Virus record (IMG/VR): IMGVR_UViG_3300010300_000163
Span: 1-20,356 of that record
Source of the DNA: a virus
DNA length: 20,356 nt
Direction: 5' to 3' (one strand)
Shown here in pieces: positions 3,569-18,039 of this stretch (positions within the stretch are counted from its first letter, which is position 1; every line of letters begins with the position of its first letter). The notes beneath the pieces were generated by a model, which had not been told where the DNA came from, did no database searches, and worked only from the letters and a program-made list of their open reading frames with translations. The translations under genes were made by a program, and so were the position numbers.

Positions 3569-4687
3569 TCAGTAATTCATTACAGGCACCGTTGGTATAC
3601 CACCAAAAGCACCAGGTAGTTTAGCTTTATTCTCTTCTATTTGTGCCTGACGCTCTTTTTCCCTTTTTTCAGCTCGGAGCATATCGTATTTCATTTTTTC
3701 TCTTACAGTAGTAAATAGTTTCTGTCCCGTCTCAGGGTCAGTATATGGAATCCTAGCATCAAGTATTAGATCCGACTGCTCCTCAATCAGACCTTCTTTT
3801 TTCATCTGTAATGATTTTATTCTGTCACTAGTTTGTGGCGCATAATCATCAGGGTTTTCTTGAAAATCCTTAAATGGAATCGTTACTTGATCGCCACTTG
3901 TATTTCGTACCCTTACTTGACTTTCATCAATTTTGTTAATTTGCGTGCCAATATCACTAAATCTTTTCTCGACATCTTGAGGGACAGGGCTACCAACATT
4001 CATAGATTTATACAATGTTGCGGCAGAATATATATCCCTAGATCTAATCAGACTTTTAATATTTTCTTTCTGCAATGGGAAAAGCTCTTCATTCTGTTTA
4101 GTCTTTTGTGTAGTCGCGGCAGTACCCGCATCCCTTGCCGAAAGGATAGAGGATTGTTGATCCCCTGCATAGTCAGCACCAATTTTTGCCGTTCTTGCGG
4201 CAGATTCTTCCTGTGTCACTCTTGCGGGAAGTGTATCTGCTTCATATTTATTTTTTAGCCTTCGATTTTCATTTAACAACTGCTGTGCAATTTGTGACAT
4301 CTCAAATGCAGACTTCTTCATCATCGCATTTTCCTGCATTGTCCTACCCGCAAGCAATCCGTTTGCACGCTCCAGGTCAGCTATACTCGCGTCTCCGCTT
4401 TGAACCTTCTGAAAAAGTGCCATGTTTTTCTTATCACTTGTTTCATCTCCGGACATTGTGAGTTGCTGAACTATGCTTGGATCTGCGGATAACTGTCCTT
4501 GTAGTGTAGACTCAAGCTGATTCCGCTTCTCCTTATTAAGCCCGTACTGCTGAATCATGCCTCCTATATCACGCCCAAGTCCGGCAATCGCATTGCCAAT
4601 TTGCTCGGAACTTCGAATCTGAGCCTGTAGAAGTGGAGTAGTATCCACCCTCATTAATCCCGCTTGTACTGTATCTCCTATTGCCAT
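3569..4687 (-). CDS. Putative internal virion protein B, coiled-coil (372 aa)
   Basis: A protein of 372 residues starting 9 nt after AAGGAGA. It is largely helical: an N-terminal amphipathic part (QAQIRSSEQIGNAIAGLGRD, 21-40), long Gln/Lys/Glu-rich stretches without enzymatic motifs, and a C-terminal charged helix (EKMKYDMLRAEKREKERQAQ, then IEENKAK) before a short Pro/Gly end, LPGAFGGIPTVPVMNY. Rod-like, enzyme-free proteins at this location suit a structural part of an ejection channel, as T7 gp15 does. The assignment is by position and composition only. The next gene begins 1 nt after its TGA. Confidence 0.62.
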   Translation of the reverse strand: MAIGDTVQAGLMRVDTTPLLQAQIRSSEQIGNAIAGLGRDIGGMIQQYGLNKEKRNQLESTLQGQLSADPSIVQQLTMSGDETSDKKNMALFQKVQSGDASIADLERANGLLAGRTMQENAMMKKSAFEMSQIAQQLLNENRRLKNKYEADTLPARVTQEESAARTAKIGADYAGDQQSSILSARDAGTAATTQKTKQNEELFPLQKENIKSLIRSRDIYSAATLYKSMNVGSPVPQDVEKRFSDIGTQINKIDESQVRVRNTSGDQVTIPFKDFQENPDDYAPQTSDRIKSLQMKKEGLIEEQSDLILDARIPYTDPETGQKLFTTVREKMKYDMLRAEKREKERQAQIEENKAKLPGAFGGIPTVPVMNY

Positions 4688-4700
4688 TGTGTTTTCTCCT

Positions 4701-4778
4701 TTAGCCCGGAAAGGGCATTGCGTCTGCCATCATTCTGCTTGTTGAATTTCCGTAATAATCACCCATCGATTGTCCCAG
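4701..4778 (-). other. In-frame 25-codon extension after an amber stop
   Basis: Beyond the TAG of the 335-aa gene, the same frame reads LGQSMGDYYGNSTSRMMADA then MPFPG and stops at TAA (4703-4701). That TAA touches the AAGGAGA ribosome site of the next gene, the usual place for a gene to end here. It could be a readthrough tail, a once-coding end cut off by a nonsense change, or a 21-aa gene starting at ATG 4766. An open run of 25 codons is not rare by chance. Confidence 0.4.
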
Positions 4779-5786
4779 CTAACCGCGACCCGCTAGAAAG
4801 CCACCACCAAGTGATCCTGCAAAACCAAGAAGTCCACTAGTCAATGAAGCGTCTGCCGCTTTATCCGCCGCATAAGCATTAGCCATTGCATTAGCCTTGT
4901 TCGCGTATGCTTGCATCCCAATATTCACACCTGCATCGGGATTTATCCTAGTCACTGATTCCTGTGGCATTCCAAAAAGTGCAGATCTTTGACCAAATCC
5001 CTGTTGAGTGTAATCACTGCCCCCACGGGTCATCATTAGCGGGTCCATGCCTGTTGCTCGGTTAAAGTTTCCTGCGGTTGTTCCTAGACTCTGAACCTGC
5101 CCACGGGCATTATTTACGATATCTCGGAGATAGTCCTCCCGACTCATCGCTTGGGCGGCAATGCCCACATTGTCAGTACCTCTGCCTCGTGAGGTAAGAG
5201 ATTCTAGCGCTGATTGATCTGCTCGCCTGCGCATCTCAGGCGAAAGATCCTGCATCTGTGACTCCTGAAATGCATCATCAGCCACTTTGTTCATCTGCTC
5301 CACACGGGCTTGCATCAGCGGATCGGATGCTCGCATTGCCTGATTGATGTCAGCACCAAACTGATTAAGAAACTCGATATTGGAAGTGGCATCACGCTCG
5401 GCCATTGTTCGCCCAAAATCCTGTGCCCTCATTGCCTCTTGCTCGGCTAGGCTTGCCATCGGATCAGCGGCTCTTCGAGCAAGATCCATCTGAAGATCCT
5501 GGTATTGCGGATCATAAGCCTGACGATTGTGGAGCATTGTCTGCTGTAATGCCGGATCAGCCATTGCGGCTACATATTCCTGTGCCGCAATTCCCGCATT
5601 AAAATCAGGTAAAGTGAAATAAGATGGAACTCCTGAACTGTTTGTAGACTTCCCTGCCCCACCCAATCGCTTTAAAACATCTGCCTCTTTCGAGTTAATG
5701 TATGCGAGCGATTCTCCTTCGGGAGCATTCTCATTTAAAAGCCTAGCGGCCTCGGCCAATGGATCTTTGATATTTTTCTTTTTCAT
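4779..5786 (-). CDS. Putative internal virion protein A (335 aa, amber stop)
   Basis: Starting at ATG 5786 the protein has 335 residues, mostly helical and rich in Ala, Met, Gln and Asp. The stretch LSPEMRRRADQSALESLTSR followed by GRGTDNVGIAAQAMSREDYL (181-220) resembles a conserved core of marine-phage virion proteins without assigned function. The C-terminus TSGLLGFAGSLGGGFLAGRG is Gly-rich and hydrophobic, suited to membrane contact. An in-frame TTG at 5807 would add 7 residues and overlap the fibre gene. It is the first of three long genes after the nozzle, where podoviruses encode ejection proteins. After the TAG at 4781-4779 the frame stays open for 25 codons to a TAA at 4701; see the separate entry. 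Confidence 0.68.
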   Translation of the reverse strand: MKKKNIKDPLAEAARLLNENAPEGESLAYINSKEADVLKRLGGAGKSTNSSGVPSYFTLPDFNAGIAAQEYVAAMADPALQQTMLHNRQAYDPQYQDLQMDLARRAADPMASLAEQEAMRAQDFGRTMAERDATSNIEFLNQFGADINQAMRASDPLMQARVEQMNKVADDAFQESQMQDLSPEMRRRADQSALESLTSRGRGTDNVGIAAQAMSREDYLRDIVNNARGQVQSLGTTAGNFNRATGMDPLMMTRGGSDYTQQGFGQRSALFGMPQESVTRINPDAGVNIGMQAYANKANAMANAYAADKAADASLTSGLLGFAGSLGGGFLAGRG

Positions 5787-5796
5787 GGGCTTAGTT

Positions 5797-6573
5797 TTAA
5801 AAAACAATTAAGTGAACTGTTACATCTATCAGACCACCTGTGTTCGTTCCCGTAAGTATGCGAACTGTGGACTGATTTATAGAGTAAATTGAGGCATCCA
5901 TCGGGTTTGTGTTTTGAGCCTGTACTGCCGTAACGCAAGCAACAGGATTAGTTACAGCAGTATTAAAAGTTACAGTGTAATCCCCGTCTGCGTTTTTAGT
6001 AATTGATAAAACATTGAACCCATCGCTGACAGTAGGATTTGTGTCAGTCCCATCGAATGTGCATTTTGCTTTTAAAAGCTGAGATGTGTTGGGAATGGAA
6101 TTATCGACATAAGCCTTGATACTTTGCTGAGTCGCCAGGGCAGTATCAGAAGGATTCGATCCACCCATATCATTCTCATCTTTTATCTCAACAGGTACGG
6201 GTGCGGCTACTGATCCGCTGACATTTCCCAAAACATTTAAATTATTTATATGTTCTAGCTTGTCGGATGTAACCGCATCGTCCGCTATCTTCGCAGTTGT
6301 GATATTTAAATCTTTTATATGATCGGTAGTGACTGCTCGATTATTGTTGTCTGTTGCATCCTGTAGTAATTCGTTACCTGTGATTCCGTTAGCAGGAACT
6401 TTCAGTTTTCCATCACCATTGTTTTGTCCATTATTGTAGAACTCGTTGTTTACAATGATAGTAGACCCGTCAGCAGGTTCCTCAAAAGTCGCGAGATCCG
6501 CAATATCCATTAGTTTTTGTGATGTAACTTGATCACCCGATGAAAAGATTTGTCCTGTGTTAAGTATTGGCAT
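5797..6573 (-). CDS. Tail fibre-like protein
   Basis: A protein of 258 residues with strong Shine-Dalgarno TAGGAGATAG before the ATG. The N-terminus (MPILNTGQIFSSGDQVTSQK) resembles a virion-attachment module. The middle carries NITTAKIADDAVTSDKLEHI (90-109) and DTALATQQSIKAYVDN (143-158), two very common fibre shaft motifs. The C-terminal domain (165-258: CTFDGTDTNPTVSDGFNVLS, then DGDYTVTFNTAV) is a beta-rich tip found in many phage fibres. The product is probably a short fibre or receptor-binding tip on the nozzle, encoded directly upstream. It is in frame with the nozzle after that gene's TAG, but its own ribosome site marks it as separate. Confidence 0.78.
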   Translation of the reverse strand: MPILNTGQIFSSGDQVTSQKLMDIADLATFEEPADGSTIIVNNEFYNNGQNNGDGKLKVPANGITGNELLQDATDNNNRAVTTDHIKDLNITTAKIADDAVTSDKLEHINNLNVLGNVSGSVAAPVPVEIKDENDMGGSNPSDTALATQQSIKAYVDNSIPNTSQLLKAKCTFDGTDTNPTVSDGFNVLSITKNADGDYTVTFNTAVTNPVACVTAVQAQNTNPMDASIYSINQSTVRILTGTNTGGLIDVTVHLIVF

Positions 6574-6585
6574 TTTTACTATCTC

Positions 6586-9363
6586 CTATTGTACTGAAGT
6601 GGTTGAACGATCTGTAATTCTAGCATCCACCTTGGTTGCCCTCACATAGGGTCTACCATTAGATGGTTGAAAGTCTGCTTGGATTCCGAATCCACGCTTT
6701 CTGACGCGAAGCCTAACAGATGCATCCTCCGCAGTTCCAAGCTCATTGCCTAGCAGTGTGGTTAGATTTACAGGTTCGCTTATTGAGTCGGGATCTTCTG
6801 CGATAAATCGAATATCTCCGTTGGATGGATTCGATTCACTAGATTTAATCTGAAATTCTGCCCGACTGAAATTCTTTCGATCCATTGAGTCGGCATCATA
6901 TTGCCGTGTGGTTAGCTGACTTACCACATCAATACCGGGGTCATCTTCGGGTCTTTGTCCGGCCTTTTGCGATACCTTGTCTTTACCCTCCAAGGCATCC
7001 AATTTATGGACACCACCTTCAAGGGTAGTAAGATACAAAGCATTCTGCGAACCCTCGCGAGCGACTAATAAATCGCGGATCGCGAAGTCTGAGGAGTTGA
7101 CACTGTCTATACTTTCGAATCCCTGATTGATAAAATTGTATACAAGGATGGTGTTGAGTTTATTCGTATCCCCGGCACCAGGTTCCGAGTCTAGAGGTAC
7201 AGCTAACCAATAGCGGTTATTGAAATAAACTCCGACTGACAGATATGCAAAGTCTTGATTTATTCGGTCGATGTAGGGTTGAATGGTTTCGGATAAAGGT
7301 GTGCCCGTGCCTCGCAGATTATACTCATCAATAAACTCTACTCCATAAATTCCTTGGTCGGATAGGAACATAATCTGATTAGCTACCTGTACGATAGACT
7401 TACGAGCACTTGCCCCCACTTCATCTGTTACCTGTGTGGTTTTTACATCCGCTAAAGATCCACTCACGCCTGTCATCAGATGGATAGATTTACGATTAAA
7501 TACGACTACCGAATCCTGTGTGAAACCTTTAATTCCAACTATAAAATCGCTCTTGCCTGACGATACTCGAAATTGATTTCCTATCTGATCAAATGTATCA
7601 GAATCTAAGATATCCGAGGCCACCAATTCATCCCTGATATCCCGATCTGTTGGCGAGGTGTCAGATGTGTATTGGTAAGGAACCCAAAGTCTACGCTGAT
7701 GAAACTCTCCAAAAGGAGCCGCAGGTTGGTGGATAAATCCTTTGCCTAATGCTAATGGCCTACTGACTGTCAGAGAGTGATTGGAGTCATCTTTAACTCC
7801 AAGGTTAAATGTAAATTGGTTTACAGTAGGAACGGAGGTGACCACCACTTCACTTCCAATAAAGCTATCATAGATCGCAGACTGTGATGTGTGGATAGTG
7901 AGTCTATCTCCGACTGCTAATCCATGTGATGAAACATCCATTGTCACGACACCACTTACTGAAGCTGTGCTAGTGTCCGTTAAATAAGCAGGTGCAGTAT
8001 AAGTACCACTTGCAACTCGCGTGAAATCCTCAAAGTATTCAACCTGTGCCCCACTGACATTGAATATCTTACTCTGAGACTGAGTCATTGTGACTGTCAG
8101 TTGATCATTCGTGGGAACACTTGCGACCTGGTAGCAGTCATTCGGATTATATTCCCAATTTCCCAATCGTGTGAGGGTGACAAAGTCTCCAACTAATCGC
8201 CCATGATCGGATGCAGTAGTCACGCTAATAGTCTGACCCGACTGAGAAGCTGATATAATCTCAAAACGATTTAGCTTTGGGCTTGCGGATAATGTGGTCT
8301 TACGAGTCCTGAAAATAAACATCTTGTCGAACCCTTGGCTCATGCCTACAGGCCCATCCACAGTCTCCCCACCCTGCTCGTAGCGACACTTATATAGCTT
8401 TGCATCTTTTAATCTTACGATCAGGCATAAATTATTTGTCGCTGAGAATATAAAATCATCATTCTCGGAAGATGCATCTGAATAAACTGCTGATCCAAAA
8501 ACCGCATTTACCGCATCATCATCCAAGGTAAAGTTTTCTGTTGTGGATGCGACCGATGTATTGCCCACATTTTTACTATTAACTGTAAATGTAGTGTCTG
8601 CTCCTGAGTCAGCAAAGGATACTGTTTTGGCAGATGTATTTATTGCAGTAATTGTATGACTGCCATTAATTGATGCATCAATGTCATCCACATGGACAGT
8701 ACCACTGACTGCAAACTCTGAAGCCGGAGTATCCTCAAGCGTGAGGGTCACAACATTACTAGCTCGCGAGGCCGCAGTAGCCACATAATTCAGAGTGGTT
8801 GGTATTGCATTACCCATCGAGGCAACTGATGTTCTACCCTCAGGATTGAGAGATGACCAAGTCTGATTTAAGTTTGTGTATGTAGTGTCAATCGTTGACC
8901 AACGCTGTGATGCTCCAACAGTCGAAAATACTTCATTCGTGCCTGTGTCAGCGTAGGTAATGGTACGAGTATTAAAATTAACACTAGCTAGAGGGAATGT
9001 ACCATTCGGGTCATCACCTGTGAAATTTAATCCATCGATGGTGATGTTATTTCCAACGATAAAGGATAAACTCGGAGTGTCATCCAATACGACTGTTACA
9101 ACATTGCTTGATCGAGATGCGGATAAAATAATATAAGGCAAGCGGATCGCATCTTCGCCTGTGGTGATTGATCCGAATAAAGTGTTTAAGCCCTTGCGTG
9201 GTTGCCAAGTGCCGTCATCATTCATGCGACCATTTTTGGACAATGCAACCTCACCGGGCTTTAGCTGATTGGGTCGCAGACGCGCATTCATCCGCAGAAA
9301 GAAGGTATCCCCTTCTGTCACGAATGGATCGTCTAGCTTGCCATATGAGCGATATCTGCTCAC
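6586..9363 (-). CDS. Tail nozzle / hub protein (gp12/gp10-like) with inserted beta modules
   Basis: A protein of 925 residues from a GTG start. The N-terminus (12-60) has PFVTEGDTFFLRMNARLRPN, KPGEVALSKNGRM and WQPRKGLNTLFG, as in podovirus proteins that read 'N-x-R-x-x-P-x-x-L-x-x-G-x-x-x-x-x-x-x-x-x-x-G-x-x-x-x-R-x-G'. Residues about 545-800 resemble a beta-propeller core: RRLWVPYQ, DSVVVFNRKSIHLMTG, QIMFLSDQGIYGVEFID, FNNRYWLAVPL and NTILVYNF. Four beta modules are inserted (about 80-150, 193-262, 368-430, 463-525). The family forms a hexameric nozzle below the adaptor ring and closes the DNA channel until injection. It is much longer than P22 gp10 and somewhat longer than T7 gp12, apparently owing to the insertions. 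The TAG stop overlaps the next gene's ribosome site. Confidence 0.72.
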   Translation of the reverse strand: MSRYRSYGKLDDPFVTEGDTFFLRMNARLRPNQLKPGEVALSKNGRMNDDGTWQPRKGLNTLFGSITTGEDAIRLPYIILSASRSSNVVTVVLDDTPSLSFIVGNNITIDGLNFTGDDPNGTFPLASVNFNTRTITYADTGTNEVFSTVGASQRWSTIDTTYTNLNQTWSSLNPEGRTSVASMGNAIPTTLNYVATAASRASNVVTLTLEDTPASEFAVSGTVHVDDIDASINGSHTITAINTSAKTVSFADSGADTTFTVNSKNVGNTSVASTTENFTLDDDAVNAVFGSAVYSDASSENDDFIFSATNNLCLIVRLKDAKLYKCRYEQGGETVDGPVGMSQGFDKMFIFRTRKTTLSASPKLNRFEIISASQSGQTISVTTASDHGRLVGDFVTLTRLGNWEYNPNDCYQVASVPTNDQLTVTMTQSQSKIFNVSGAQVEYFEDFTRVASGTYTAPAYLTDTSTASVSGVVTMDVSSHGLAVGDRLTIHTSQSAIYDSFIGSEVVVTSVPTVNQFTFNLGVKDDSNHSLTVSRPLALGKGFIHQPAAPFGEFHQRRLWVPYQYTSDTSPTDRDIRDELVASDILDSDTFDQIGNQFRVSSGKSDFIVGIKGFTQDSVVVFNRKSIHLMTGVSGSLADVKTTQVTDEVGASARKSIVQVANQIMFLSDQGIYGVEFIDEYNLRGTGTPLSETIQPYIDRINQDFAYLSVGVYFNNRYWLAVPLDSEPGAGDTNKLNTILVYNFINQGFESIDSVNSSDFAIRDLLVAREGSQNALYLTTLEGGVHKLDALEGKDKVSQKAGQRPEDDPGIDVVSQLTTRQYDADSMDRKNFSRAEFQIKSSESNPSNGDIRFIAEDPDSISEPVNLTTLLGNELGTAEDASVRLRVRKRGFGIQADFQPSNGRPYVRATKVDARITDRSTTSVQ

Positions 9364-9509
9364 TTCTTCTTAACCTCCTGATATAGCTTTTTACCCATGT
9401 AGATTATGGTGATGATTCCAGCTATGCATCCAAAGAGACTATCCAATGTGGACAGACCGAAGGTGGCTAATGTGCCCCCCATGCCGAAGATAGAGGTGCG
9501 ATCAATCAT
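9360..9509 (-). CDS. 49-aa membrane protein (holin/antiholin-like candidate)
   Basis: The open frame encodes 49 residues: MIDRTSIFGMGGTLATFGLS, a membrane segment around TLDSLFGCIAGIITIIYMG (21-39), and a basic end KKLYQEVKKK. The N-terminal Gly-rich part is also moderately hydrophobic, so one or two spans are possible. Its ATG overlaps the stop of the 38-aa gene by 1 nt and its TGA overlaps the GTG of the nozzle gene. A membrane helix followed by a basic C-terminus is holin-like; two adjacent mini membrane proteins could be a holin/antiholin pair. This is inference from topology and position. Confidence 0.6.
   Translation of the reverse strand: MIDRTSIFGMGGTLATFGLSTLDSLFGCIAGIITIIYMGKKLYQEVKKK
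9374..9379 (-). promoter_or_regulatory. Ribosome binding site that sets the GTG start of the nozzle gene
   Basis: AGGAGG lies 10 nt before the GTG at 9363, inside the end of the 49-aa gene. It supports the GTG as the true start of the 925-aa protein, whose frame has no nearby ATG. Confidence 0.75.
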
Positions 9510-9625
9510 TAGAATAAGAGATCCAAGACGATGATTCCTAGCACTAAGCCCACGAATATCGTAATCATTTTCCCACGCTTAGAGAGTGTTTCAAATTTCT
9601 TTTTGAGTAGAATTATGTTTTTCAT
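9509..9625 (-). CDS. 38-aa single-span membrane protein (holin-like candidate)
   Basis: The open frame encodes 38 residues: a basic N-terminus MKNIILLKKKFETLSKRGKM and a membrane helix ITIFVGLVLGIIVLDLLF at the very end. The ATG overlaps the upstream TGA (ATGA), and its TAA overlaps the ATG of the following gene (TAATG), so it is stitched into the operon on both sides. One C-terminal membrane span with a positively charged N-terminus fits a small class III-type holin or an accessory lysis/membrane protein. There is no sequence signature that proves this. Confidence 0.6.
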   Translation of the reverse strand: MKNIILLKKKFETLSKRGKMITIFVGLVLGIIVLDLLF

Positions 9626-10059
9626 TTTTGGTCAGAAGGTCTCGGAAAGGGAGGTCGAGTGGTGGATCTTGTGACTTCAGTTTTAGCACATCTCTTTGCC
9701 ACGAAAATGGGTATTGCTAAATAGCAACCAAGCACTACTGCCGCACCTATCAGGATGCGTTTTATATACGATGTAAATTCAGCGAATCCGCTCTTATGTT
9801 CCGCCATGCCTTGAGCTACCAGGGCACTCACATCTCCGTGCGTTAAAGCCTCAATCGTTTCTTCTGCCTCTACGAGTGCATCTGCATTTTTTAATGCTTC
9901 TCCCGCAAGCACACCCGCACCCGCAGACAAACCTCCTGCCACAGGGCCACCTGCAAGCGTACCCACTGATCCGCCAATCACTCCGCCTAATGTCGGATAG
10001 GTCGAACGAAAGGAACATCCGGCGGTAAGGAAGCAAAGTGCTAAAAGGAGATAGATCAT
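9622..10059 (-). CDS. Lipoprotein with C-terminal membrane segment; u-spanin candidate
   Basis: A protein of 145 residues. The N-terminus MIYLLLALCFLTAGCSFRST has a short hydrophobic stretch ending in a lipobox-like T-A-G-C, predicting a lipid-modified Cys15. A Gly/Ala-rich zipper (25-53) follows, then a helical acidic stretch, a membrane segment at 102-120 (ILIGAAVVLGCYLAIPIFV) and a basic, Pro-rich tail. Lipid anchor at one end and transmembrane helix at the other is the layout of unimolecular spanins such as T1 gp11, which link outer and inner membranes and fuse them at lysis. Two tiny membrane proteins follow, the first overlapping its stop (ATGA). An alternative is a generic glycine-zipper lipoprotein. 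No endolysin is in the window. Confidence 0.6.
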   Translation of the reverse strand: MIYLLLALCFLTAGCSFRSTYPTLGGVIGGSVGTLAGGPVAGGLSAGAGVLAGEALKNADALVEAEETIEALTHGDVSALVAQGMAEHKSGFAEFTSYIKRILIGAAVVLGCYLAIPIFVAKRCAKTEVTRSTTRPPFPRPSDQK

Positions 10060-10289
10060 TAGGGTGCGTCAGGATCAGACCACTCAGACCCTGCAAGAAT
10101 CGTCAACATCTCAGAACGATCATAGGTAGTCTTACCTACTAGAAAGCTAGGCGTGTCGCCTTCAAACTTAACGAATGTCTGTGTACCAGCTAGATTGTAT
10201 CTAAGCGTGTCAGCACTTGTCTCTAGCACTTGGTTAAAATCTACGGAAGATACTTCCGATGCGTCAATAATTACATAGTTTCTGCTCAT
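10059..10289 (-). CDS. Small conserved phage protein (76 aa), unknown function
   Basis: An acidic, soluble protein of 76 residues: MSRNYVIIDASEVSSVDFNQ, TSADTLRYNLAGTQTFVKFE, then SFLVGKTTYDRSEMLTILAG. It looks compact with mixed alpha/beta structure; the 'NYVIIDASEV ... V-F-Q-V-E-TS-DTLR-S-D-TF-K' pattern recalls small proteins that follow fibre genes in marine phages. No function is known to me; a fibre chaperone or minor structural part is possible. It starts 1 nt after the LamG stop, and its TAA overlaps the next ATG (TAATG). Confidence 0.7.
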   Translation of the reverse strand: MSRNYVIIDASEVSSVDFNQVLETSADTLRYNLAGTQTFVKFEGDTPSFLVGKTTYDRSEMLTILAGSEWSDPDAP

Positions 10290-10290
10290 A

Positions 10291-11496
10291 TTATGAAGGG
10301 ACTGAGGATGAAAATGTAGGACCGTTAGTTAAAGTTCCGTCTTGTGAACCCGATCCTTGATCTGTGATAGTTGTTCCTGTACCACCATCATTGTCTCCGG
10401 ATCTCCACCAATGCGTTGGAGCGGTTGAAACATTATTACTGTCATTCAAATTGTTTGGTATTCCTGAGTTATAAATCGTTGCTATATCCCCTGAAACATC
10501 TGTTGACCATAAAGCGATTTCATCAACTAGACCTGCATAGAACTGAGTATTATTTTGCCTTCTTCCTATATCTAAACTTCCAATAGCCATTGGAGAAGTC
10601 GGTACTGTACCACCCGATTGGGCACCACTTGCTGTCGTTTGAAGTGTTCCATTAACCCAAAAATCATAACCCGCTGAACCTCCATTCGATTGAGAGGATG
10701 TCTGCCAAGCAATAAATATATGATGCCAACTAGTATTGCTTAATGAAATTCCTGATCCTGTTCCAAAAGCTCCTAACCCGTAACTTACACCTACTACTTC
10801 GTTGGTCACATAACTCGTACCATTACCTAAAAATAAAGGACGATAATTAGTACTATCTCCACCCATCAATACTTGGGCACCACTTGAGGAATTAATTGTA
10901 GAATCAGGTTTAATCCAAACAGAGGCGGCTTGAAGAGTTAAGTTCGCAGCTGTGTCCATATAGTCATCTACCCCGTCTAAATCTAAACTGTAATTATTTA
11001 TTAGTGGAGCAGTAATTAAATCACCGTCAACATAGTAGGCATTCGCACCAACAGGTATCACATTGACTACCGCATATTGTCCGGCTGTTGCCGTCTTGTT
11101 ATTAAAGCCGTTAATCGAAGCACCCGAACCTGCAATAGTTACTGTTCCCGCTCCTCCTTGTGTGATTGTACAGTTGAATCCGCTAGTTAAGCCCGATGGG
11201 ATTGTGACAATGATCTGTCCGGCATTACTGCAAACGATCACTTTACCATTGTCACTGTTTGATAGGGTGCGAGCAGTTGTTGTTTCTGACACTATGTCAT
11301 TAAACAAATCTGTACCACTGACTGTCACTGCACCTGTCGATCCGTTGACCGATTGCACAGGTGCTAGGGTCATCAGGTTAGTAGCGGTGACTTTTTTAGT
11401 AGTTGCGGTTCCTGCGACATCGTCAACAATGGGTAAAATGTCTGCCCCTGCGGGTGTCGCCAAGTTACTTAATTCTGTTATCTTTTTTGTAGCCAT
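10291..11496 (-). CDS. LamG/concanavalin A-like adhesin (tail fibre or spike)
   Basis: From the preferred ATG the protein has 401 residues. Residues 1-41 (MATKKITELSNLATPAGADI, then LPIVDDVAGTATTKKVT) match a very common N-terminal attachment module of phage fibres. A linker (45-160) includes QSVNGSTGAVTVSG and a beta-rich TVTIAGSGASINGF segment. Residues about 165-360 form a LamG-type jelly roll: NYSLDLDGVDDYMD, SVWIKPDS, WHHIFIAWQT, YDFWVNGTLQ and YAGLVDEIALWS are characteristic strands. Such domains bind glycans or proteins at the cell surface. An upstream in-frame ATG (11523) would add 9 residues and overlap the fibre gene; the internal ATG leaves an 8-nt gap and begins the recognised module. 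No Shine-Dalgarno is seen. Confidence 0.82.
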   Translation of the reverse strand: MATKKITELSNLATPAGADILPIVDDVAGTATTKKVTATNLMTLAPVQSVNGSTGAVTVSGTDLFNDIVSETTTARTLSNSDNGKVIVCSNAGQIIVTIPSGLTSGFNCTITQGGAGTVTIAGSGASINGFNNKTATAGQYAVVNVIPVGANAYYVDGDLITAPLINNYSLDLDGVDDYMDTAANLTLQAASVWIKPDSTINSSSGAQVLMGGDSTNYRPLFLGNGTSYVTNEVVGVSYGLGAFGTGSGISLSNTSWHHIFIAWQTSSQSNGGSAGYDFWVNGTLQTTASGAQSGGTVPTSPMAIGSLDIGRRQNNTQFYAGLVDEIALWSTDVSGDIATIYNSGIPNNLNDSNNVSTAPTHWWRSGDNDGGTGTTITDQGSGSQDGTLTNGPTFSSSVPS

Positions 11497-11504
11497 AATA
11501 ATTT

Positions 11505-12788
11505 TTAGTGAAGTGCAGTCCAAGCTCCGTTGGCGTATCCGTAGAATTTATGTAGATCTGTATCGTACACCATCTCGCCATTAGACGCAGAAATAGCAGT
11601 TCTTTGACTTGTATTCATCCTCGGCATAATCACGCCACCTGTTGTGGAAGCTACTTCGAGGGGTGCGGAGGGGGAGACTGTGCCAATACCTACATTGCCG
11701 TTGGAGTCGATGGTCATGTCTGTCCGGGTCGCTTCAGCAGTACCAAACTTAATATTATGACCCTCACTTCGGATGCATAAATCATTAGTAACTGAACCAT
11801 ACAATATTGAACTAGTTGCGTTTGCGATTGCAACCCTACCCTTTGGCGTCTCACCACGGCTCAAGGTAATAATCGGCTCTGATTCAGTTAATCCTTTATT
11901 TATGTCTAATGAAGTACTAGCACTCTGAGTGCCAATACCGACATGGCCTTCTTTAGTGATGCGCATTTTTTCATCGCCTTTTACACTAAAGCGAATATCT
12001 GCCCCTACTCCGCCCGTGTCTCCGTCATCCGCACCTAAATACAAGCTATCGCCATTCGGGCGAATCATATGATAATAAGTTTCTGAATCAACCCCCAAGC
12101 GCAATCCATCCGTTCCTGCTGTAGAAAGATGCAACTTCGCACTAGGACTCTCAGTACCAATACCTACATTGCCACCTATTCTTTGAAGTAATAGATTGTC
12201 ACCTTTGTTTGAAACTCTTATACCTCCGTCAGTTGTGGTGTCATCAGACATTTTAAAATCCACAAACGGATCGGTTGATTTCAGATGCAAACACGAATCA
12301 TTTAAACCTGAATTAACTTCTAATTTAGCACTAGGACTCGCAGTTCCAATGCCGCAATTGCCATCGGAGTCGATGCGTATTGCTTCAGTCGAATTTGTGC
12401 GAATCGCAAGCTCGTTGGTGGCAGGTGCGTGAATAGCTACCGCTGAACTGCTTGTGCCTGTTTGATCCAAGGCGTATTCATCTGCGACTACATTTCCGCT
12501 TACATCAAGTGATCCTCCTGTTACCGCTCCACTTGTTGAAACAGAACCCGCTGTAACCGCTCCACTTGTTGTCAATGTTGTTGAAACTATATCTCCATTT
12601 ACATCCAACTCTTGGGTCGGGGAGGTTGTCCCTATGCCAACCTTCGTTGTGCCAATGGCGAGTGCGGAAGCTGTGCCCTCTCCGTCTAGCACGGCCTTAA
12701 CTGTAGAGTCCACTCCGTTGGTGTAATCACCTACCTGGAGCAATCCCTTGTAGCTATTTGCGGGTGTTAAATTTTGTAGATCACTCAT
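11505..12788 (-). CDS. Tail fibre protein with GIGT repeats
   Basis: A protein of 427 residues with five copies of a GIGTxSPSxxLxV element (starting at 51, 146, 209, 284 and 367), often preceded by IDSDGN or KEGHV. This is the common repetitive shaft of phage and bacterial trimeric fibres. The C-terminus VIMPRMNTSQRTAISASNGE followed by MVYDTDLHKFYGYANGAWTA is a frequent fibre end cap. No S74-type self-cleaving chaperone is present. An 11-residue tandem repeat lies at 74-95. It would form an elongated host-recognition or side fibre attached to the adaptor/nozzle region. It overlaps the 50-aa gene by 8 nt, and the LamG adhesin gene follows. Confidence 0.8.
   Translation of the reverse strand: MSDLQNLTPANSYKGLLQVGDYTNGVDSTVKAVLDGEGTASALAIGTTKVGIGTTSPTQELDVNGDIVSTTLTTSGAVTAGSVSTSGAVTGGSLDVSGNVVADEYALDQTGTSSSAVAIHAPATNELAIRTNSTEAIRIDSDGNCGIGTASPSAKLEVNSGLNDSCLHLKSTDPFVDFKMSDDTTTDGGIRVSNKGDNLLLQRIGGNVGIGTESPSAKLHLSTAGTDGLRLGVDSETYYHMIRPNGDSLYLGADDGDTGGVGADIRFSVKGDEKMRITKEGHVGIGTQSASTSLDINKGLTESEPIITLSRGETPKGRVAIANATSSILYGSVTNDLCIRSEGHNIKFGTAEATRTDMTIDSNGNVGIGTVSPSAPLEVASTTGGVIMPRMNTSQRTAISASNGEMVYDTDLHKFYGYANGAWTALH
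12523..12571 (-). repeat. 33-bp tandem repeat in the fibre gene
   Basis: The 16-bp word ACCGCTCCACTTGTTG (plus strand) occurs at 12523-12538 and 12556-12571, a 33-bp period coding for TSGAVTAGSVS/TSGAVTGGSLD. Because 33 is a multiple of three, gain or loss of a unit would change shaft length without a frameshift. Confidence 0.75.
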
Positions 12789-12934: not shown

Positions 12935-13189
12935 TTACATCTTGTATGCTAAAACTGCACCACTCGTAAGTTGTAATGAAGTAGTGCGTCCATAAATCGC
13001 GGTATTTGTTGGTAGCGTGGTTGCGTCTCCACCTGTGCATAAAGCGGAGATGTTATCTACATTAGAAGTAATATCTGCAAAGACCGTATCCTCTGTGCAA
13101 ACAATTGCAAAAAAGTCTCCTGTGTGAGCCGCTGTATCATTAATGTATTCACCCCCGTTAAGTCCTAATCCTCTGTATTCGTTTGCCAT
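12935..13189 (-). CDS. Small beta-rich structural protein (84 aa)
   Basis: The 84 residues begin MANEYRGLGLNGGEYINDTA, then AAHTGDFFAIVCTEDTVFAD, and end LQLTSGAVLAYKM. It is beta-rich, acidic, with two Cys and no membrane segment. I recognise the 'EYRG-G ... GEYINDT-A-HTG-F-AI ... LTSGAVLAY' pattern from small proteins in environmental phage structural modules; a minor capsid or head-surface role is inferred and no named family is recalled. It starts 2 nt after the adaptor stop without a Shine-Dalgarno, and the next gene begins 1 nt after its TAA, so it is embedded in a translationally coupled run. Confidence 0.7.
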   Translation of the reverse strand: MANEYRGLGLNGGEYINDTAAHTGDFFAIVCTEDTVFADITSNVDNISALCTGGDATTLPTNTAIYGRTTSLQLTSGAVLAYKM

Positions 13190-13191
13190 GA

Positions 13192-14031
13192 TTAAATAGA
13201 TGTTTGAATTGTTGTTCCGTATGTAATGAATTGTATAAAGTTCTGCTGACCCTGTTGGCGCTCTAGTTTATCAAGTTCAACTAATAACAAGGATTCTGCT
13301 TGTTGATATGCGACTTGCGCTTTGTCAGTTTGTCCGTCTGCGGCTAAAAAATCTCCGTATGCTCCATAGGTTGCATACTCTGAAAATATATAAAGAAAAT
13401 CTTCGCTAGTAGATGTGTAGTTCTCGAATGGTTTGCGGTATAAAATAAACACAGGCTTAGTGCTTGATCTGTCTACTAAGGTTACCTGTCCATAATCCGC
13501 AACTTCTGTTGAAGAAAACTCCACACGAAATGCTACTTCATCTGCATGTCCCACATCATATGGGTCATTATTTGAAACCCGTAGGATCTCTCCAATTGTG
13601 TCATTGAACTCAACGACATTCATAGTAGTAGCAGTTGCAGTTGCTCCGCTTCCACCACCACCACTGAATGATACTGTAGGAGCAGATGTGTATCCTGTGC
13701 CGTGACTAGTTACTGCGACTCCATTTACACGACCCTCAGAGTCGATAGTTGCAGTTGCCACTGCACCTGATCCTCCACCACCTGTGAATGCAACTGTTGG
13801 TGCTGAAGTATATCCTGTACCACCATTACCAACATTAACATTCCTAACCTGTAAATCAGGTGTCTTTTGCTCTAAGCGGATAGTGTCAGGCCACCTGGTG
13901 CGTTCCCATGCTAATCTTCCAAAGCGATTAAAGCTTCGTATGGCCGCACTTTGCTCTTGTTCCAATAAGCTATCAAGTCCAATCAGGTGTCTTAGATTGG
14001 TAAGCATTGTGCTTATTGTTACCTGTCTCAT
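13192..14031 (-). CDS. Head-tail adaptor (gp11/gp4-like) with inserted beta module
   Basis: A protein of 279 residues. The N-terminal helices (1-50: TMLTNLRHLIGLDSLLEQEQ, then RLAWERTRWPDTIRLE) and the C-terminal part (about 145-270: EILRVSNNDPY, PVFILYRKPFENYT, AYGDFLAADGQTDKAQVAYQ) have the pattern of podovirus connector/tail-tube adaptors, with a W-E-R-x-x-W-P signature and a C-terminal helix pair. Such proteins form a 12-mer ring under the portal and hold the nozzle. Residues about 62-138 are different: two copies of a GTGYTSAPTV-type module interrupt the fold. The neighbours are the head and nozzle genes. The assignment comes from pattern and position and was not confirmed by a search. 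Confidence 0.7.
   Translation of the reverse strand: MRQVTISTMLTNLRHLIGLDSLLEQEQSAAIRSFNRFGRLAWERTRWPDTIRLEQKTPDLQVRNVNVGNGGTGYTSAPTVAFTGGGGSGAVATATIDSEGRVNGVAVTSHGTGYTSAPTVSFSGGGGSGATATATTMNVVEFNDTIGEILRVSNNDPYDVGHADEVAFRVEFSSTEVADYGQVTLVDRSSTKPVFILYRKPFENYTSTSEDFLYIFSEYATYGAYGDFLAADGQTDKAQVAYQQAESLLLVELDKLERQQGQQNFIQFITYGTTIQTSI
13627..13821 (-). repeat. Duplicated 40-residue module inside the adaptor gene
   Basis: GTGYTSAPTV followed by xFxGGGGSGAxATAT occurs at residues 71-95 (13821-13747) and again at 111-135 (13701-13627), an exact 120-bp period. The amino acids are far more alike than the DNA, so this is an old or selected duplication. The same module is common in phage fibres and other surface proteins. 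Confidence 0.85.
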
Positions 14032-14375
14032 GCGGGCTTAAAGCTTTGACCTGTAAATGATTGCTTGCCTAATGACTTTGCCTTGAAAGATGGATTATCA
14101 CGAAGGAACTCTTTTACGAAGCTCTTGTCTGACCAACATCCACGATGAGATTGATGCCAACGGAAATATTCCCTGGCGGGGATTGTGGCTTTTAACTGAC
14201 CAAGTCCTTCGGTCTTTGCCACGCCCATTGCTTCGTTTTCTTTGCGTGCCATTTGCTCACGCATGGATGCTTCGTGCTTTTCGAGGTCTACCTCGTAACG
14301 CAAATAACGATCCAAGTTCTTCATAAACTGTGAACCGTTTCCGCTCTTCCACTTTGGTAAAAGTATGTTTGGCAT
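14028..14375 (-). CDS. Conserved phage protein of unknown function (115 aa)
   Basis: The protein has 115 residues. The N-terminal half is helical and charged (NLDRYLRYEVDLEKHEASMR, 20-39). The second half has GLGQLKATIPAREYFRWHQS followed by HRGCWSDKSFVKEFLRDNP, rich in Trp, His and Arg. The aromatic/basic block looks like a conserved core and I associate it with proteins next to adaptor genes in environmental podoviruses, but no function is known to me. Its TGA overlaps the ATG of the adaptor gene (ATGA), suggesting coupled translation and a shared head-tail joining step. No clear Shine-Dalgarno precedes its ATG; the hairpin lies just upstream. Confidence 0.7.
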   Translation of the reverse strand: MPNILLPKWKSGNGSQFMKNLDRYLRYEVDLEKHEASMREQMARKENEAMGVAKTEGLGQLKATIPAREYFRWHQSHRGCWSDKSFVKEFLRDNPSFKAKSLGKQSFTGQSFKPA

Positions 14376-14395
14376 AGTCGTTTAGTTGTAGGTTA

Positions 14396-14424
14396 GGGAG
14401 AGGCCCGCTTGGCGAACCTCTCCC
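14396..14424 (-). promoter_or_regulatory. Perfect 8-bp hairpin between decoration gene and next gene
   Basis: On the minus strand GGGAGAGG (14424-14417) and CCTCTCCC (14403-14396) form an 8-bp, GC-rich stem with a 13-nt loop inside a 64-nt gene-free gap. No U tract follows (CTAACCTAC instead), so it is not a standard terminator. It could be a partial or factor-dependent terminator, or a structure protecting the 3' end of the capsid message. Confidence 0.55.
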
Positions 14425-14439
14425 CTCCTAAATGCGTGC

Positions 14440-14868
14440 TTACGCGAATTGACCGAGATCTACGATGCGTAGACCAATGACGATCTTTCCGGCTGTAGCT
14501 GATGCGATTGCGGCATCCGTTACTTCAAGAAGTATGGATGTTGCGCTGTTCGTTCCGCCAACAGGTTGAGATTGATTGCCTGTGAAGGCATCACCTGTGT
14601 TGAAGACGGGAGCGGACATTGCGTCTACATCAAGAGCATCGATGAACTCATCGGGATCTCCGGATGAAGTTCCTACATCGATAACAAGAGATGTTGTTCC
14701 TGCAAACGCTTCGGATTCGTAAACTCCTACCATTTCAACGGCACCACCCGCAGGGATGGTTGCGATAGTAGCTTGGCCACCATTACCGATAGTTTGTAGG
14801 TCCTCATAGGTTGCGGTGTAAACATGTGTGAAACCGCGTCCTGCTTCGTTGTTACTTAATTCTGACAT
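14440..14868 (-). CDS. Putative head decoration protein
   Basis: A 142-residue, beta-rich, Gly/Ala/Thr-rich acidic protein (AGRGFTHVYTATYEDLQTIG near the N-terminus, ATAGKIVIGLRIVDLGQF at the C-terminus), without Lys clusters or membrane segments. GAGGAA lies about 9 nt upstream of the ATG. Its position directly after the capsid gene, its length and its composition fit a capsid-stabilising or decoration protein that binds the outer shell. I do not recognise a named family; a head-completion role is possible. A hairpin follows 16 nt after its stop, so the scaffold-capsid-decoration trio may be expressed more strongly than the genes downstream. Confidence 0.6.
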   Translation of the reverse strand: MSELSNNEAGRGFTHVYTATYEDLQTIGNGGQATIATIPAGGAVEMVGVYESEAFAGTTSLVIDVGTSSGDPDEFIDALDVDAMSAPVFNTGDAFTGNQSQPVGGTNSATSILLEVTDAAIASATAGKIVIGLRIVDLGQFA

Positions 14869-14892
14869 GATTAATGTTCCTCTGTTTAAGGA

Positions 14893-15861
14893 TTAGTTAA
14901 AGTAACCGTGAGCCTTCGGGCTGTGGCAGGCGAGTCCGGCGATAACATCGCAGAAACCGCGTCTTCCGCCGCCTTGATTTTCAAGCTCAGAATTAGACTC
15001 AGCTTTCAAGGTGTGGATTGCCACATACTCAGGATCGATAAGAAGTCCGGCATCTTTGTCGATAGTGGAAGAACCACTTGTACGATTTAAAAGAGTGCTA
15101 GGTACGATTGCAACATTACCAAAGTCACCTTCGTAGAAATTTACAGACAAGGTGATTTTCTTGCTCTCAGCAGGCTGAGTAACTTGAAAGGATAATGCAG
15201 TTGTTGAACCTTCTTGACGAGCAAAGTCGCTAATCTCTTTCTTAAGAGTTGGACCTGCGATTAAGGTGAGTTGTCCGCCTGGCATTCCGTTGGCTTCGTA
15301 GAGTTCCTGAAGAACGCTGTTGAAGGTAGTCTCTGTTTGCGTTCCGGTTGTGTCGTTAGCAACATTTTGGAAAGCGGCAGGAATGTCGGATGGTTGACCA
15401 CCAAGACCAAGGAACTTAAACATTCCACGGGTTTTGTATGGTGAACCGGAACCGGAGTCTGCTTGGCGATCCTGTGCTGAACAAACAGCGGCTTCCATGT
15501 CGCGCTTGATTTCGCGAACTGCTTTAGCCTCGGAATTTGCAAACTCGGATGCAACTCCGGCTGTGTCTACCAACTCTTGTATGTCGGATACAGCGTATGA
15601 TCTGCGGAACTTCTGCACATAGTTTCCAATGCGAGCGCGGTTAGCGGCTTTGTTGTCAAAGCTAGTTACATCTTCGCCTTCATTGACACCATCAAATGAA
15701 GCAACTGCCAAGTCATCGACTTGTACCTCAAAGAATGTGCCTGATGCGGCGGCTTTTTTTGCCATACTTACGAATGGCGTAGATTCGGGTTCCAGGATTG
15801 TAAGGACATCAGTTAAGTCCTCACGGTTCCCGGCGGTATTATAAGAAGCGGCTTTAGCCAT
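14893..15861 (-). CDS. Major capsid protein, HK97-fold (SU10-like)
   Basis: A protein of 322 residues. The N-terminal REDLTDVLTILEPESTPFVS (13-32) is the hallmark of the SU10/DUF5309 branch of HK97-fold capsid proteins, in which the N-arm reads 'R-E-D-L-x-D-x-x-x-x-x-x-P-x-x-T-P'. Next come an E-loop-like segment (FFEVQVDDLAVASFDGVNEG), a helical P-domain stretch with SEAKAVREIKRDMEAAV, and a beta-rich C-terminus. Hundreds of copies form the icosahedral shell. A perfect AGGAGG precedes the ATG, and scaffold and decoration genes flank it. The length is normal for the family, with no sign of a protease-cleaved delta domain. Confidence 0.93.
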   Translation of the reverse strand: MAKAASYNTAGNREDLTDVLTILEPESTPFVSMAKKAAASGTFFEVQVDDLAVASFDGVNEGEDVTSFDNKAANRARIGNYVQKFRRSYAVSDIQELVDTAGVASEFANSEAKAVREIKRDMEAAVCSAQDRQADSGSGSPYKTRGMFKFLGLGGQPSDIPAAFQNVANDTTGTQTETTFNSVLQELYEANGMPGGQLTLIAGPTLKKEISDFARQEGSTTALSFQVTQPAESKKITLSVNFYEGDFGNVAIVPSTLLNRTSGSSTIDKDAGLLIDPEYVAIHTLKAESNSELENQGGGRRGFCDVIAGLACHSPKAHGYFN

Positions 15862-15870
15862 TTTTATTTT

Positions 15871-15876
15871 CCTCCT
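15871..15876 (-). promoter_or_regulatory. Strong ribosome binding site of the capsid gene
   Basis: AGGAGG lies 9 nt before the capsid ATG and overlaps the scaffold TAG stop. It is among the strongest Shine-Dalgarno matches in the window, fitting the need for hundreds of capsid subunits, and it fixes the capsid start at 15861. Confidence 0.85.
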
Positions 15877-16972
15877 AAGATTTTCTAAGTTTTAAATATT
15901 GTTGATAGTCTGCCATTGACCCGGAAGCTTCGTATTTCTTCTTCGCCGCTTCCACAGCCTTCAGCTTGCTTGATTGAGGAGTCTTTGCCCTTGCCGTTCC
16001 TGCTTCCGTGGATGCCACGGGTGCTTTGGGTTTGGGTGGCGGTTTTGCCGCCTGCGACTGCCTTGCATTTACCGCATTCAATCCTTCGACCATGAGTGCC
16101 AGGGCGAAGTTAGAGTTTGGTAAATGATCGACCAATGGTTTGTAGAGTGCTGACTGCTTCACGCTCATAAACAACTTGTAGTCATCGCTCTCCGGATTCC
16201 CTAAGAATTGGAAAGTTTCGACTGCTTGTTGATCTGATGCCTGACGCTCCTTAATCCATGCCTGCCTTGCGGGAGCATCCTTGCGAATTATCTTCTTCGC
16301 ATTGGATCGTATTCTCCGCAGATCAGCTTTGGTGTAAGTCTTGTCTCCATCCTTTAGGATATACTCGTTTCCGTTGTCGTCATATTGGACCTCATTCTCC
16401 ATTCCATCCTCTGCCCACTCTATAAGAGTGTTTAGATTCTCGACTTCCTTCGCGAGTCCCTGCTCATCTGTAACATTATGCAGAGCATTATCCTTGAGGT
16501 ACTCAGGTACTTCGCCAACTTGCGTTTGCTGTGCCTGCTCTGCTTGAGCTTGCAATGCTTCATTTTCCGCAAGTAGTGCTTTCTTCTGAGCGGTAAGTCT
16601 ACCAAACCGTTTAACCGCAGATGCGTTCAGCGATTTCGCTAGTTCGCGACTTTCCTCTTCGGACAAGTTGTCCAGGTCGATACCATACTTTGAAAGAACA
16701 TCCGAAGGTTGTGGGGGCGGCGATGAATCATCCTCCGTTTCCACATCTTCAGCAGACTGTGTTTCCTCGGCGACTTCCTCAACTTCCGCAGTTTCTTCAG
16801 CGGGTTCGTCCGTCTCCTCGGTGCTTGCTTCAGGTTCCGCATCTTGGGTTTGTTTACTTTTCAATAATTGATCAGCAAACTCTGCCATTGATACATTGCC
16901 ATCCACGGGCGTTTCTGTGTTCACGGAATTTTCAGAGGACTCCGAGATAACCTCTTCTGTTAATGTTTCCAT
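15875..16972 (-). CDS. Capsid scaffolding protein
   Basis: A protein of 365 residues with the classic scaffold layout. It has a long Glu/Asp/Ser/Thr-rich, low-complexity N-terminus (about 1-95), a short Pro run, a helical and probably coiled-coil segment (about 120-150, QKKALLAENEALQAQAEQAQ), and a Lys/Ala-rich C-terminus with a Pro-rich linker (about 310-365). Scaffolding proteins fill the procapsid, guide capsid subunits into an icosahedron around the portal and leave before or during packaging; a basic C-terminus usually binds the capsid protein. It is directly upstream of the capsid gene, and its TAG overlaps that gene's ribosome binding site. No protease motif is visible. There is no clear Shine-Dalgarno before its ATG, so the start is supported mainly by lack of alternatives. 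Confidence 0.88.
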   Translation of the reverse strand: METLTEEVISESSENSVNTETPVDGNVSMAEFADQLLKSKQTQDAEPEASTEETDEPAEETAEVEEVAEETQSAEDVETEDDSSPPPQPSDVLSKYGIDLDNLSEEESRELAKSLNASAVKRFGRLTAQKKALLAENEALQAQAEQAQQTQVGEVPEYLKDNALHNVTDEQGLAKEVENLNTLIEWAEDGMENEVQYDDNGNEYILKDGDKTYTKADLRRIRSNAKKIIRKDAPARQAWIKERQASDQQAVETFQFLGNPESDDYKLFMSVKQSALYKPLVDHLPNSNFALALMVEGLNAVNARQSQAAKPPPKPKAPVASTEAGTARAKTPQSSKLKAVEAAKKKYEASGSMADYQQYLKLRKS

Positions 16973-16993
16973 ATATATTCAAGGTCGTAGCCT

Positions 16994-17026
16994 AGTGTAG
17001 CACAATGTAGTAAATTGTCTTGACAA
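16994..17026 (-). promoter_or_regulatory. Candidate promoter and palindrome before the scaffold gene
   Basis: Downstream of the terminator, the minus strand carries TGC-TACACT (17002-16994), an extended -10 element 21 nt upstream of the scaffold ATG. A TTGTCA at 17026-17021 looks like a -35 box but is 21 nt from the -10, too far for a standard sigma-70 promoter. That box is half of a perfect palindrome TTGTC-AA-GACAA (17026-17015), which may be an operator or chance. A promoter is expected here because the preceding block is terminated. Confidence 0.4.
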
Positions 17027-17033
17027 AGGCAAT

Positions 17034-17068
17034 AAAAAACCCCCTGCGCCACCCCAAGACGCAGAGGG
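17034..17068 (-). terminator. Rho-independent terminator after the portal block
   Basis: On the minus strand the arms CCCTCTGCG (17068-17060) and CGCAGGGGG (17048-17040) form a 9-bp stem with one G-U wobble and an 11-nt loop, followed directly by TTTTTT (17039-17034). The wobble pair and U tract exist only in minus-strand RNA, so the direction is clear. It separates the terminase-portal block from the scaffold-capsid block. Confidence 0.88.
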
Positions 17069-17088
17069 TAATAACCCCGAATAACGAG

Positions 17089-17319
17089 CTAAAGTTTGTA
17101 GAAGGTGTCTAGTTCCTCGTCAATGGCTTCGAGTTTTCCCGTGATATAAAAGTGTCTGTTTGTGTCTGCGATAATCTCCGGAGTCTGCAACGCCCTGATA
17201 GTTTCTTCACGCATACTTTCACGCAATTCAATATATCGGTTGAAGTTAGGGTCGTTCTTGAGAGCGGACAGCGCTCTAATCGCATCCTCATGGTCTATTT
17301 CGTGATTTGTTTTACTCAT
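17089..17319 (-). CDS. Small helical protein of unknown function (76 aa)
   Basis: The 76 residues are predicted to be almost entirely helical and charged: EIDHEDAIRALSALKNDPNF (7-26), NRYIELRESMREETI, then a C-terminal HFYITGKLEAIDEELDTFY. The pattern 'D-P-x-F ... G-K/R-x-x-A-x-x-E-E-L' recalls small phage proteins encoded between portal and scaffold whose role is unassigned. The start overlaps the preceding stop by 4 nt. It is the last gene of the portal block, with an intrinsic terminator about 20 nt after its TAG. A role in head assembly is inferred from position only. Confidence 0.7.
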   Translation of the reverse strand: MSKTNHEIDHEDAIRALSALKNDPNFNRYIELRESMREETIRALQTPEIIADTNRHFYITGKLEAIDEELDTFYKL

Positions 17320-17663
17320 TTACGCCTGACGGGTTTTACGCGCCTGCCCATCCCCACTTTTCGCTTTTCCGCTTTCTTGCGGGCAAGCTGACTCTTGGAC
17401 ATTTCGCTTTTTGTTTTTGGGGTTTTCTTGGAAACTCTTTTAGTGGGGCGACAATATTCATTCTTGCCTCCCTGTCCGCATGGTTTACCGCTACGGGTAT
17501 CCTTCCATTTCTCGTCCTTCCATCTTTTGAGGGATGCACCTTTGGCGGACTTCTTTACATGGCCTTTTGCTTTTCGGCACTTGGCAATCTGTTGGGACGC
17601 ACGGGCAGATGGGAATACTTTTACCCGTGCCTTTACCTTTTTATAACATGCGTCCTTTGGCAT
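17316..17663 (-). CDS. Basic Cys/Trp-containing protein, DUF5872-like (115 aa)
   Basis: A very Lys/Arg-rich protein of 115 residues. The N-terminal motif is MPKDACYKKVKARVKVFPSA (1-20), with QQIAKCRK at 24-31. The centre has SLKRWKDEKWKDTRSGKPCG (44-63) and NEYCRPTKR (68-76). Cys6, Cys29, Cys62 and Cys71 with Trp48 and Trp53 suggest a small, possibly metal-bound fold. From memory the W-K-D-E-K-W-x-D/C-G/Y-C-R-P-T pattern corresponds to DUF5872, present in phages and large algal viruses; I could not confirm this. Function is unknown. It starts immediately after the stop of the 86-aa gene and its TGA overlaps the next ATG (ATGA), so translation is probably coupled. Confidence 0.8.
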   Translation of the reverse strand: MPKDACYKKVKARVKVFPSARASQQIAKCRKAKGHVKKSAKGASLKRWKDEKWKDTRSGKPCGQGGKNEYCRPTKRVSKKTPKTKSEMSKSQLARKKAEKRKVGMGRRVKPVRRK

Positions 17664-17924
17664 CTAGCAGTTCCACATTTTCCGTGACCAATAATTAGCA
17701 CTTAATTTAGTACTTTTCCCTTTGATGCCACCACTCCTTGCGCAATAACTCTTTTTGCGAGCAGGGTTATTTTTCTTAATACTAAGATTAGCATCTCCGA
17801 AACGGATAGTTTTCTTCTTACCGCCCTCAGATGCTAAGACTACAAACTTCTTCTTACCGTAGCCAGGCTCGCCTTTGCGGATTCGTCTTGGCGAATTTAC
17901 TTTAGTTGGTCTACCGCTTGCCAC
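17664..17924 (-). CDS. Small basic conserved phage protein (86 aa)
   Basis: From a GTG start the protein has 86 residues: RRIRKGEPGYGKKKFVVLAS (13-32), GGKKKTIRFGDANLSIKKNN (34-53) and a C-terminal SANYWSRKMWNC. The G-Y-G-K-K-K-F-V-V and Y-W-S-x-K-M-W elements are familiar from marine phage proteins of unknown function. Cys61 and Cys86 plus aromatic residues could support metal binding or a disulfide, but nothing proves it. An ATG at 17960 in the same frame would give 98 aa; I prefer the GTG because the conserved-looking part begins just after it and the overlap with the 37-aa gene shrinks to 14 nt. The TAG stop abuts the ATG of the next gene with no gap. Confidence 0.75.
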   Translation of the reverse strand: MASGRPTKVNSPRRIRKGEPGYGKKKFVVLASEGGKKKTIRFGDANLSIKKNNPARKKSYCARSGGIKGKSTKLSANYWSRKMWNC

Positions 17925-18024: not shown

Positions 18025-18039
18025 AATATATGTCCCTTT

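Follow-up and report, generated by a model that had tools for sequence, protein, structure and literature searches.

Unimolecular spanins (u-spanins), as defined by Kongari et al., combine an outer-membrane lipoprotein signal with a C-terminal transmembrane domain; a periplasmic cysteine is present in 0 of 58 known u-spanins, beta strands are predicted for T1 gp11, and the survey makes no mention of a glycine-rich spanin (PMC6139136). Here we describe three overlapping genes for small membrane proteins, P145, P38, and P49, in a marine phage, virus record IMGVR_UViG_3300010300_000163. The window analysed spans all 20,356 bases of this IMG/VR record, which probably covers only part of the phage genome. 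From the sequences we infer, with a probability of roughly two in three, that these genes supply the membrane components of a lysis cassette located inside the tail operon. The three genes are:

9622..10059, minus strand: P145, candidate unimolecular spanin, 145 amino acids
9509..9625, minus strand: P38, one-helix membrane protein and partner of P145, 38 amino acids
9360..9509, minus strand: P49, candidate small holin, 49 amino acids

Conservation and topology of P145, P38, and P49

The three open reading frames (ORFs) have the coordinates and junctions given in the initial annotation, with ATGA, TAATG, and GTGA overlaps joining P145, P38, P49, and a downstream 925-residue gene, the GTGA lying between P49 and the latter. 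Searches of IMG/VR returned 213-253 relatives per query. The genes co-occur in unchanged order in 118 collected loci, a set that counts some contigs twice, and P145 stands without P38 and P49 in three more loci, each of which ends at a contig edge. P145, P38, and P49 are genuine genes under purifying selection, with pN/pS (nonsynonymous relative to synonymous polymorphism) of 0.38, 0.30, and 0.41 and with 93, 73, and 118 distinct proteins, respectively.

P145 carries the lipobox LTAGC-S with Cys15 after a short signal, a glycine-zipper-like segment at residues 24-55, and a membrane helix at residues 102-120 (mean Kyte-Doolittle value 2.58), the cysteine and helix being placed as first reported. 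The conserved periplasmic part reads THGDVSALVAQGM..., and the family consensus of the helix is ILIGAAVLLGxYLAIPIFVAK (20 aligned representatives; helix in 93 homologues). Beyond the helix lies a basic, predicted cytoplasmic tail with Cys124 and a TRxPF motif. Lysine and arginine residues after the helix number 6.7 on average, and this basic tail argues for an inner-membrane anchor oriented N-out/C-in with a cytoplasmic C-terminus. A search for homologues lacking either the cysteine or the helix found none; all 93 distinct full-length homologues have both, and in all 93 the cysteine is preceded by glycine or serine at position -1 and followed by serine or asparagine. None of the 93 has a periplasmic cysteine. 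Six of them, with CSIR rather than CSL/F/M/V, escaped the pattern search; on inspection the N-terminal cysteine was present and a periplasmic cysteine absent. The predicted topology of P145 is thereby that of a unimolecular spanin, with putative lipidation at Cys15 and a presumed location across both membranes.

Similar to T1 gp11-type u-spanins, P145 has a lipoprotein-type N-terminal cysteine, a C-terminal helix with a cytoplasmic tail, and no cysteine in the periplasmic part, and its gene adjoins a candidate holin gene, P49. Contrary to T1 gp11, the periplasmic part is glycine-zipper-like and probably helical rather than built of beta strands; P145 also differs from this type in its short signal without a basic n-region, and no recognisable endolysin lies nearby. 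In its N-terminal half P145 is similar to bacterial glycine-zipper lipoproteins, and one of these, from a phylum-level genome sample taken around a Verrucomicrobia relative, matches the P145 profile over residues 5-56 (E = 1.2e-5). Such outer-membrane lipoproteins share with P145 the lipobox followed by a glycine-zipper segment, but the matching bacterial protein has a coiled-coil-like charged stretch in place of the C-terminal membrane helix.

The two smaller proteins have membrane helices at residues 20-38 of P38 and about 18-36 of P49, in line with their earlier description as membrane proteins. P38 is 38 or 39 residues long throughout the examined set, has a basic amphipathic N-terminus (MKNxxLLxxKF..LSKKGKM) ahead of its C-terminal helix, and in the loci inspected usually has its start codon in the ATGA shared with P145, which it accompanies everywhere but in three contig-end loci. 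Profile searches gave no significant family match for P38. P49 has one clear helix, a hydrophobic N-terminal segment rich in glycine, alanine, and threonine, and a lysine-rich C-terminus. Its leading match is the 'holin' profile phrog_920, at E = 0.014 for the window protein, and 8 of 20 family members hit this profile (best E = 8e-4); PHROG 920 small holins are likewise small and hydrophobic with a lysine-rich C-terminus, and the alignment covers residues 10-49. The match is suggestive of P49 as a candidate holin.

An exchangeable slot beside P49

In the first collection, 25 of 143 P49-bearing loci are without P145 and P38. With P49 as the anchor in a larger set, 86 non-redundant loci carried P145 with P38, 50 carried a different module built around a 154-residue membrane protein, and none carried both; 22 further P49 loci had too little upstream sequence for the slot to be scored, and a single locus, that of phage C75C1, had neither module. 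In the inspected loci with enough upstream sequence, C75C1 excepted, the alternative module comprises the 154-residue protein and a protein of 106-118 residues, usually together with one of 72-74 residues. Each of these last two proteins combines a single N-terminal helix with a coiled-coil-like stretch. When P145, P49, the 154-residue protein, and an alternative 56-residue P49-like protein were compared by tblastn with 50,697 phage records, no match was found.

The gene for the 154-residue protein holds a second open frame. This +1 frame runs uninterrupted for about 92 codons in nearly all sequences, with 2 stops compared with about 136 expected from synonymous shuffling of 27 non-redundant genes, and a strict lipobox is present in 19 of the 27 (2.4 expected). 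In the frames inspected, the lipobox comes after a hydrophobic stretch and before a tail rich in serine, proline, and glutamine; several frames have a methionine and basic residues ahead of the hydrophobic stretch. Examples of genes with the conserved +1 ORF are L083:9394-9858 and L272:6001-6465. Lambda-type o-spanins are typified by an embedded lipoprotein, and the +1 ORF is a candidate embedded o-spanin. The alternative proteins of 114 and 74 residues match the Rz-like spanin profile phrog_739 weakly (E about 0.03). Pelagiphage relatives of the 106-residue protein are encoded next to terminase genes or, in Pelagibacter phage HTVC027P, two genes ahead of a peptidase M15 gene. None of these observations alone proves a part in lysis; jointly, the embedded frame, the phrog_739 matches, and the pelagiphage context point to lysis. 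In some T7-like marine phages the 154-residue gene stands between the scaffold and capsid genes.

The alternative module resembles lambda Rz/Rz1 in its +1 embedded lipoprotein frame and its membrane/coiled-coil partners, but here the host gene of the embedded frame encodes a multi-helix protein and not a classical i-spanin. P145 differs from Rz/Rz1 as a single protein without an embedded frame. An ORF embedded in the P145 gene was tested for and rejected, with 437 stops in the +1 frame compared with 452 expected and so no excess of openness.

Total mutual exclusion beside the same P49 neighbour is most readily accounted for if P145 with P38 and the 154-residue module are alternatives for one job, and exclusion by a module with an embedded lipoprotein provides independent support for a spanin-type reading of P145. 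The contents of the slot probably carry out disruption of the outer membrane, and P49 would be the holin common to both modules. Since P145 and P38 travel together and P49 is common to both modules, the unit is an exchangeable gene pair beside P49, two genes plus one. The initial proposal of a spanin and holin cassette is supported in outline, through the topology of P145 and the exclusion between modules, and not as a fixed trio; relatives keep P145 with P38, while P49 is also found with the alternative module.

In the proposed mechanism, P49 would act as the holin and, once infection has run its course, make the inner membrane permeable. P145 would be a one-protein spanin, its lipidated N-terminal cysteine in the outer membrane and its C-terminal helix in the inner membrane, and after degradation of the cell wall it would join the two membranes and rupture the outer one. 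P38 would work specifically with P145, perhaps by regulating it or as a co-factor. The slot of related phages would instead be filled by i-spanin-like membrane/coiled-coil proteins and the o-spanin-like frame embedded in the 154-residue gene. A fuller proposal, which we advance tentatively and with less than even confidence, is that P145 founds a new one-protein spanin family derived from a glycine-zipper lipoprotein and dependent on a 38-residue partner, in phages that lyse Gram-negative (probably Verrucomicrobia) hosts without a recognisable endolysin. On this view P145 and its partner are exchanged together for a new kind of two-component spanin, the lipoprotein of which is encoded within the gene of a multi-helix membrane protein.

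Neighbouring genes, relatives, and host

The genes that border the slot in the window are:

10059..10289, minus strand: conserved 76-residue gene (MSRNYVIIDASEVSSVDF...), upstream slot border
6586..9363, minus strand: 925-residue protein of tail nozzle / stabilization type, related to head closure Hc3, downstream slot border
11523..10291: laminin-G-like fibre gene, directly beyond the 76-residue gene

The cluster had been placed between a fibre gene and the nozzle gene. On the upstream side this required correction, as the 76-residue gene, and not the fibre gene, lies directly upstream of P145. Some relatives have the 76-residue gene ahead of the alternative module as well, and in several it adjoins the slot with either module. 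On the downstream side, the 925-residue protein finds its best phage match in a C75C1 protein named 'head closure Hc3', and proteins named 'phage stabilization protein' match it less well. These matches make 'nozzle' a fair label and a reasonable identification by relatedness alone. Candidate ejection proteins of 342, 372, and 1175 residues come after the nozzle gene. In a hydropathy scan of a greedy ORF set, a membrane helix was found in P145, P38, P49, and one opposite-strand (antisense) ORF only; no other coding gene in the window is predicted to encode a membrane protein.

Comparison with two relatives demonstrated that the window is a mosaic, as identities differ gene by gene. Relative to G001, identity is 100% for P145, 93% for the 342-residue gene, 68% for the nozzle, 35% for the capsid, and 31% for a 714-residue gene; relative to G008, it is 72% for the capsid, 72% for the 714-residue gene, 71% for P145, 88% for P49, and 27% for the nozzle. 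The tail/ejection half (3569-10289) is closest to G001 and the head half (12935-20356) to G008. P145, P38, and P49 persist while neighbouring genes change. G008 carries genes for an integrase, DnaB, a PTPS/QueD-like protein, and a nucleoside deoxyribosyltransferase. G001 has a second short lipoprotein-like ORF (MKAIIIIALIALVGCAKKN...) at G001:34784-35014, far from the cluster.

A 44,081-base contig of a Verrucomicrobia assembly (L226-L228) carries a relative in which all three genes are present; this relative adjoins tRNA-synthetase, LpxI, and enolase-like genes and has a stretch with an opposite-strand ORF between P145 and P38. This arrangement is consistent with an integrated prophage in a bacterium that makes lipid A; a misassembled or misbinned contig is possible. 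A phylum-wide search of 388 genomes gave this contig as the only clear match. The contig suggests a temperate phage with a host among the Verrucomicrobia.

Evidence against a lysis role, rival explanations, and implications

Several results weigh against assigning the cluster to lysis. C75C1, the closest phage with a name, encodes a P49 relative and carries neither module. Only three of the tested homologues have a lysine or arginine ahead of the hydrophobic core of the P145 signal, and only part of the family fits the strict lipobox at position -3, where the window has threonine and others have leucine, methionine, or phenylalanine. The AlphaFold model of P145 is all-helical and of low confidence (predicted local distance difference test score, pLDDT, 55.8), compared with the beta-rich fold proposed for T1 gp11, and a structure search with this model gave nothing at E<=0.001. 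The holin and spanin profile searches proposed with the initial annotation returned the phrog_920 match for P49 and, in the libraries searched, no known spanin family for P145. The phrog_920 score is weak, P49 has only 47-57 residues, and the profile is unspecific: of 14 control genomes, 11 also gave hits at E<=1. For this reason the match is no more than suggestive, and it was rejected as stand-alone proof of a holin.

An endolysin, anticipated elsewhere in the genome, was not recognised. Two relatives have direct terminal repeats of 112 and 99 bases (G004, 37,199 bases; G008, 37,269 bases) and were therefore taken as complete. Neither yielded a lysozyme, amidase, transglycosylase, or M15 peptidase (Pfam, E<=0.01), nor did a PHROG scan of their large and unknown proteins reveal an endolysin. 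PF00959, PF01510, PF01464, and PF08291 were silent in 17 records, yet gave matches in controls, and there was no candidate signal-anchor-release (SAR) endolysin among proteins of fewer than 260 residues with an N-terminal helix. It follows that the endolysin belongs to an unrecognised family or that lysis differs in these phages. The candidate cassette thus comes without a recognised endolysin; one may have escaped recognition, and the window itself is probably incomplete. The search for a competing holin or spanin set gave the outcome predicted for a lysis cassette, as none was found in related genomes, including the two complete ones, where P145, P38, and P49 are nearly the sole membrane proteins besides stray small or antisense frames and, in one genome, a short lipoprotein-like ORF.

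P145 with P38 and P49 could instead belong to the DNA-ejection apparatus, as internal or tail-associated proteins that form a channel through the periplasm at infection in the manner of other podovirus ejection proteins. The genes do lie within the structural operon and overlap the nozzle gene, and the glycine-rich segment of P145 is similar in kind to segments of membrane-active ejection proteins. A conserved lipidation-type cysteine with an inner-membrane helix is, however, ill-suited to a virion protein, membrane proteins of 38 and 49 residues are improbable virion parts, the three candidate ejection proteins already stand behind the nozzle gene, and what the slot holds is swapped for a module that includes an embedded frame for a lipoprotein. 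We regard an ejection role as unlikely, although it is the leading alternative.

Somewhat less probable still is that P145 is an outer-membrane lipoprotein that blocks superinfection or changes the cell surface, inserted or regulated by P38 and P49. Small phage lipoproteins of such use are known and some relatives look temperate, one complete genome having an integrase and another relative adjoining bacterial genes; the location within the late tail operon, the C-terminal inner-membrane helix kept in 93 of 93 homologues, and mutual exclusion with an o-spanin-like module all argue against this. We give equally little weight to the suggestion that only P49, perhaps with P38, acts in lysis and that P145 is an unrelated, hitch-hiking lipoprotein. 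It would account for the occurrence of P49 without P145 and for the missing family match of P145, but P145 and P38 are separated at contig ends only, and together they exclude the alternative module across 136 anchored loci.

With the lysis cassette as the preferred reading, the locus bears on a wider difficulty. Lysis genes of uncultured marine phages are seldom annotated because they are tiny, overlap, and share no sequence with model systems. A slot with two mutually exclusive candidate spanin modules and a shared candidate holin offers an annotation rule for many IMG/VR contigs. The exchange of modules is also a natural swap that asks whether one protein can replace a two-component system, and the endolysin apparently missing from complete genomes might turn out to be a wall-degrading enzyme of a new class.

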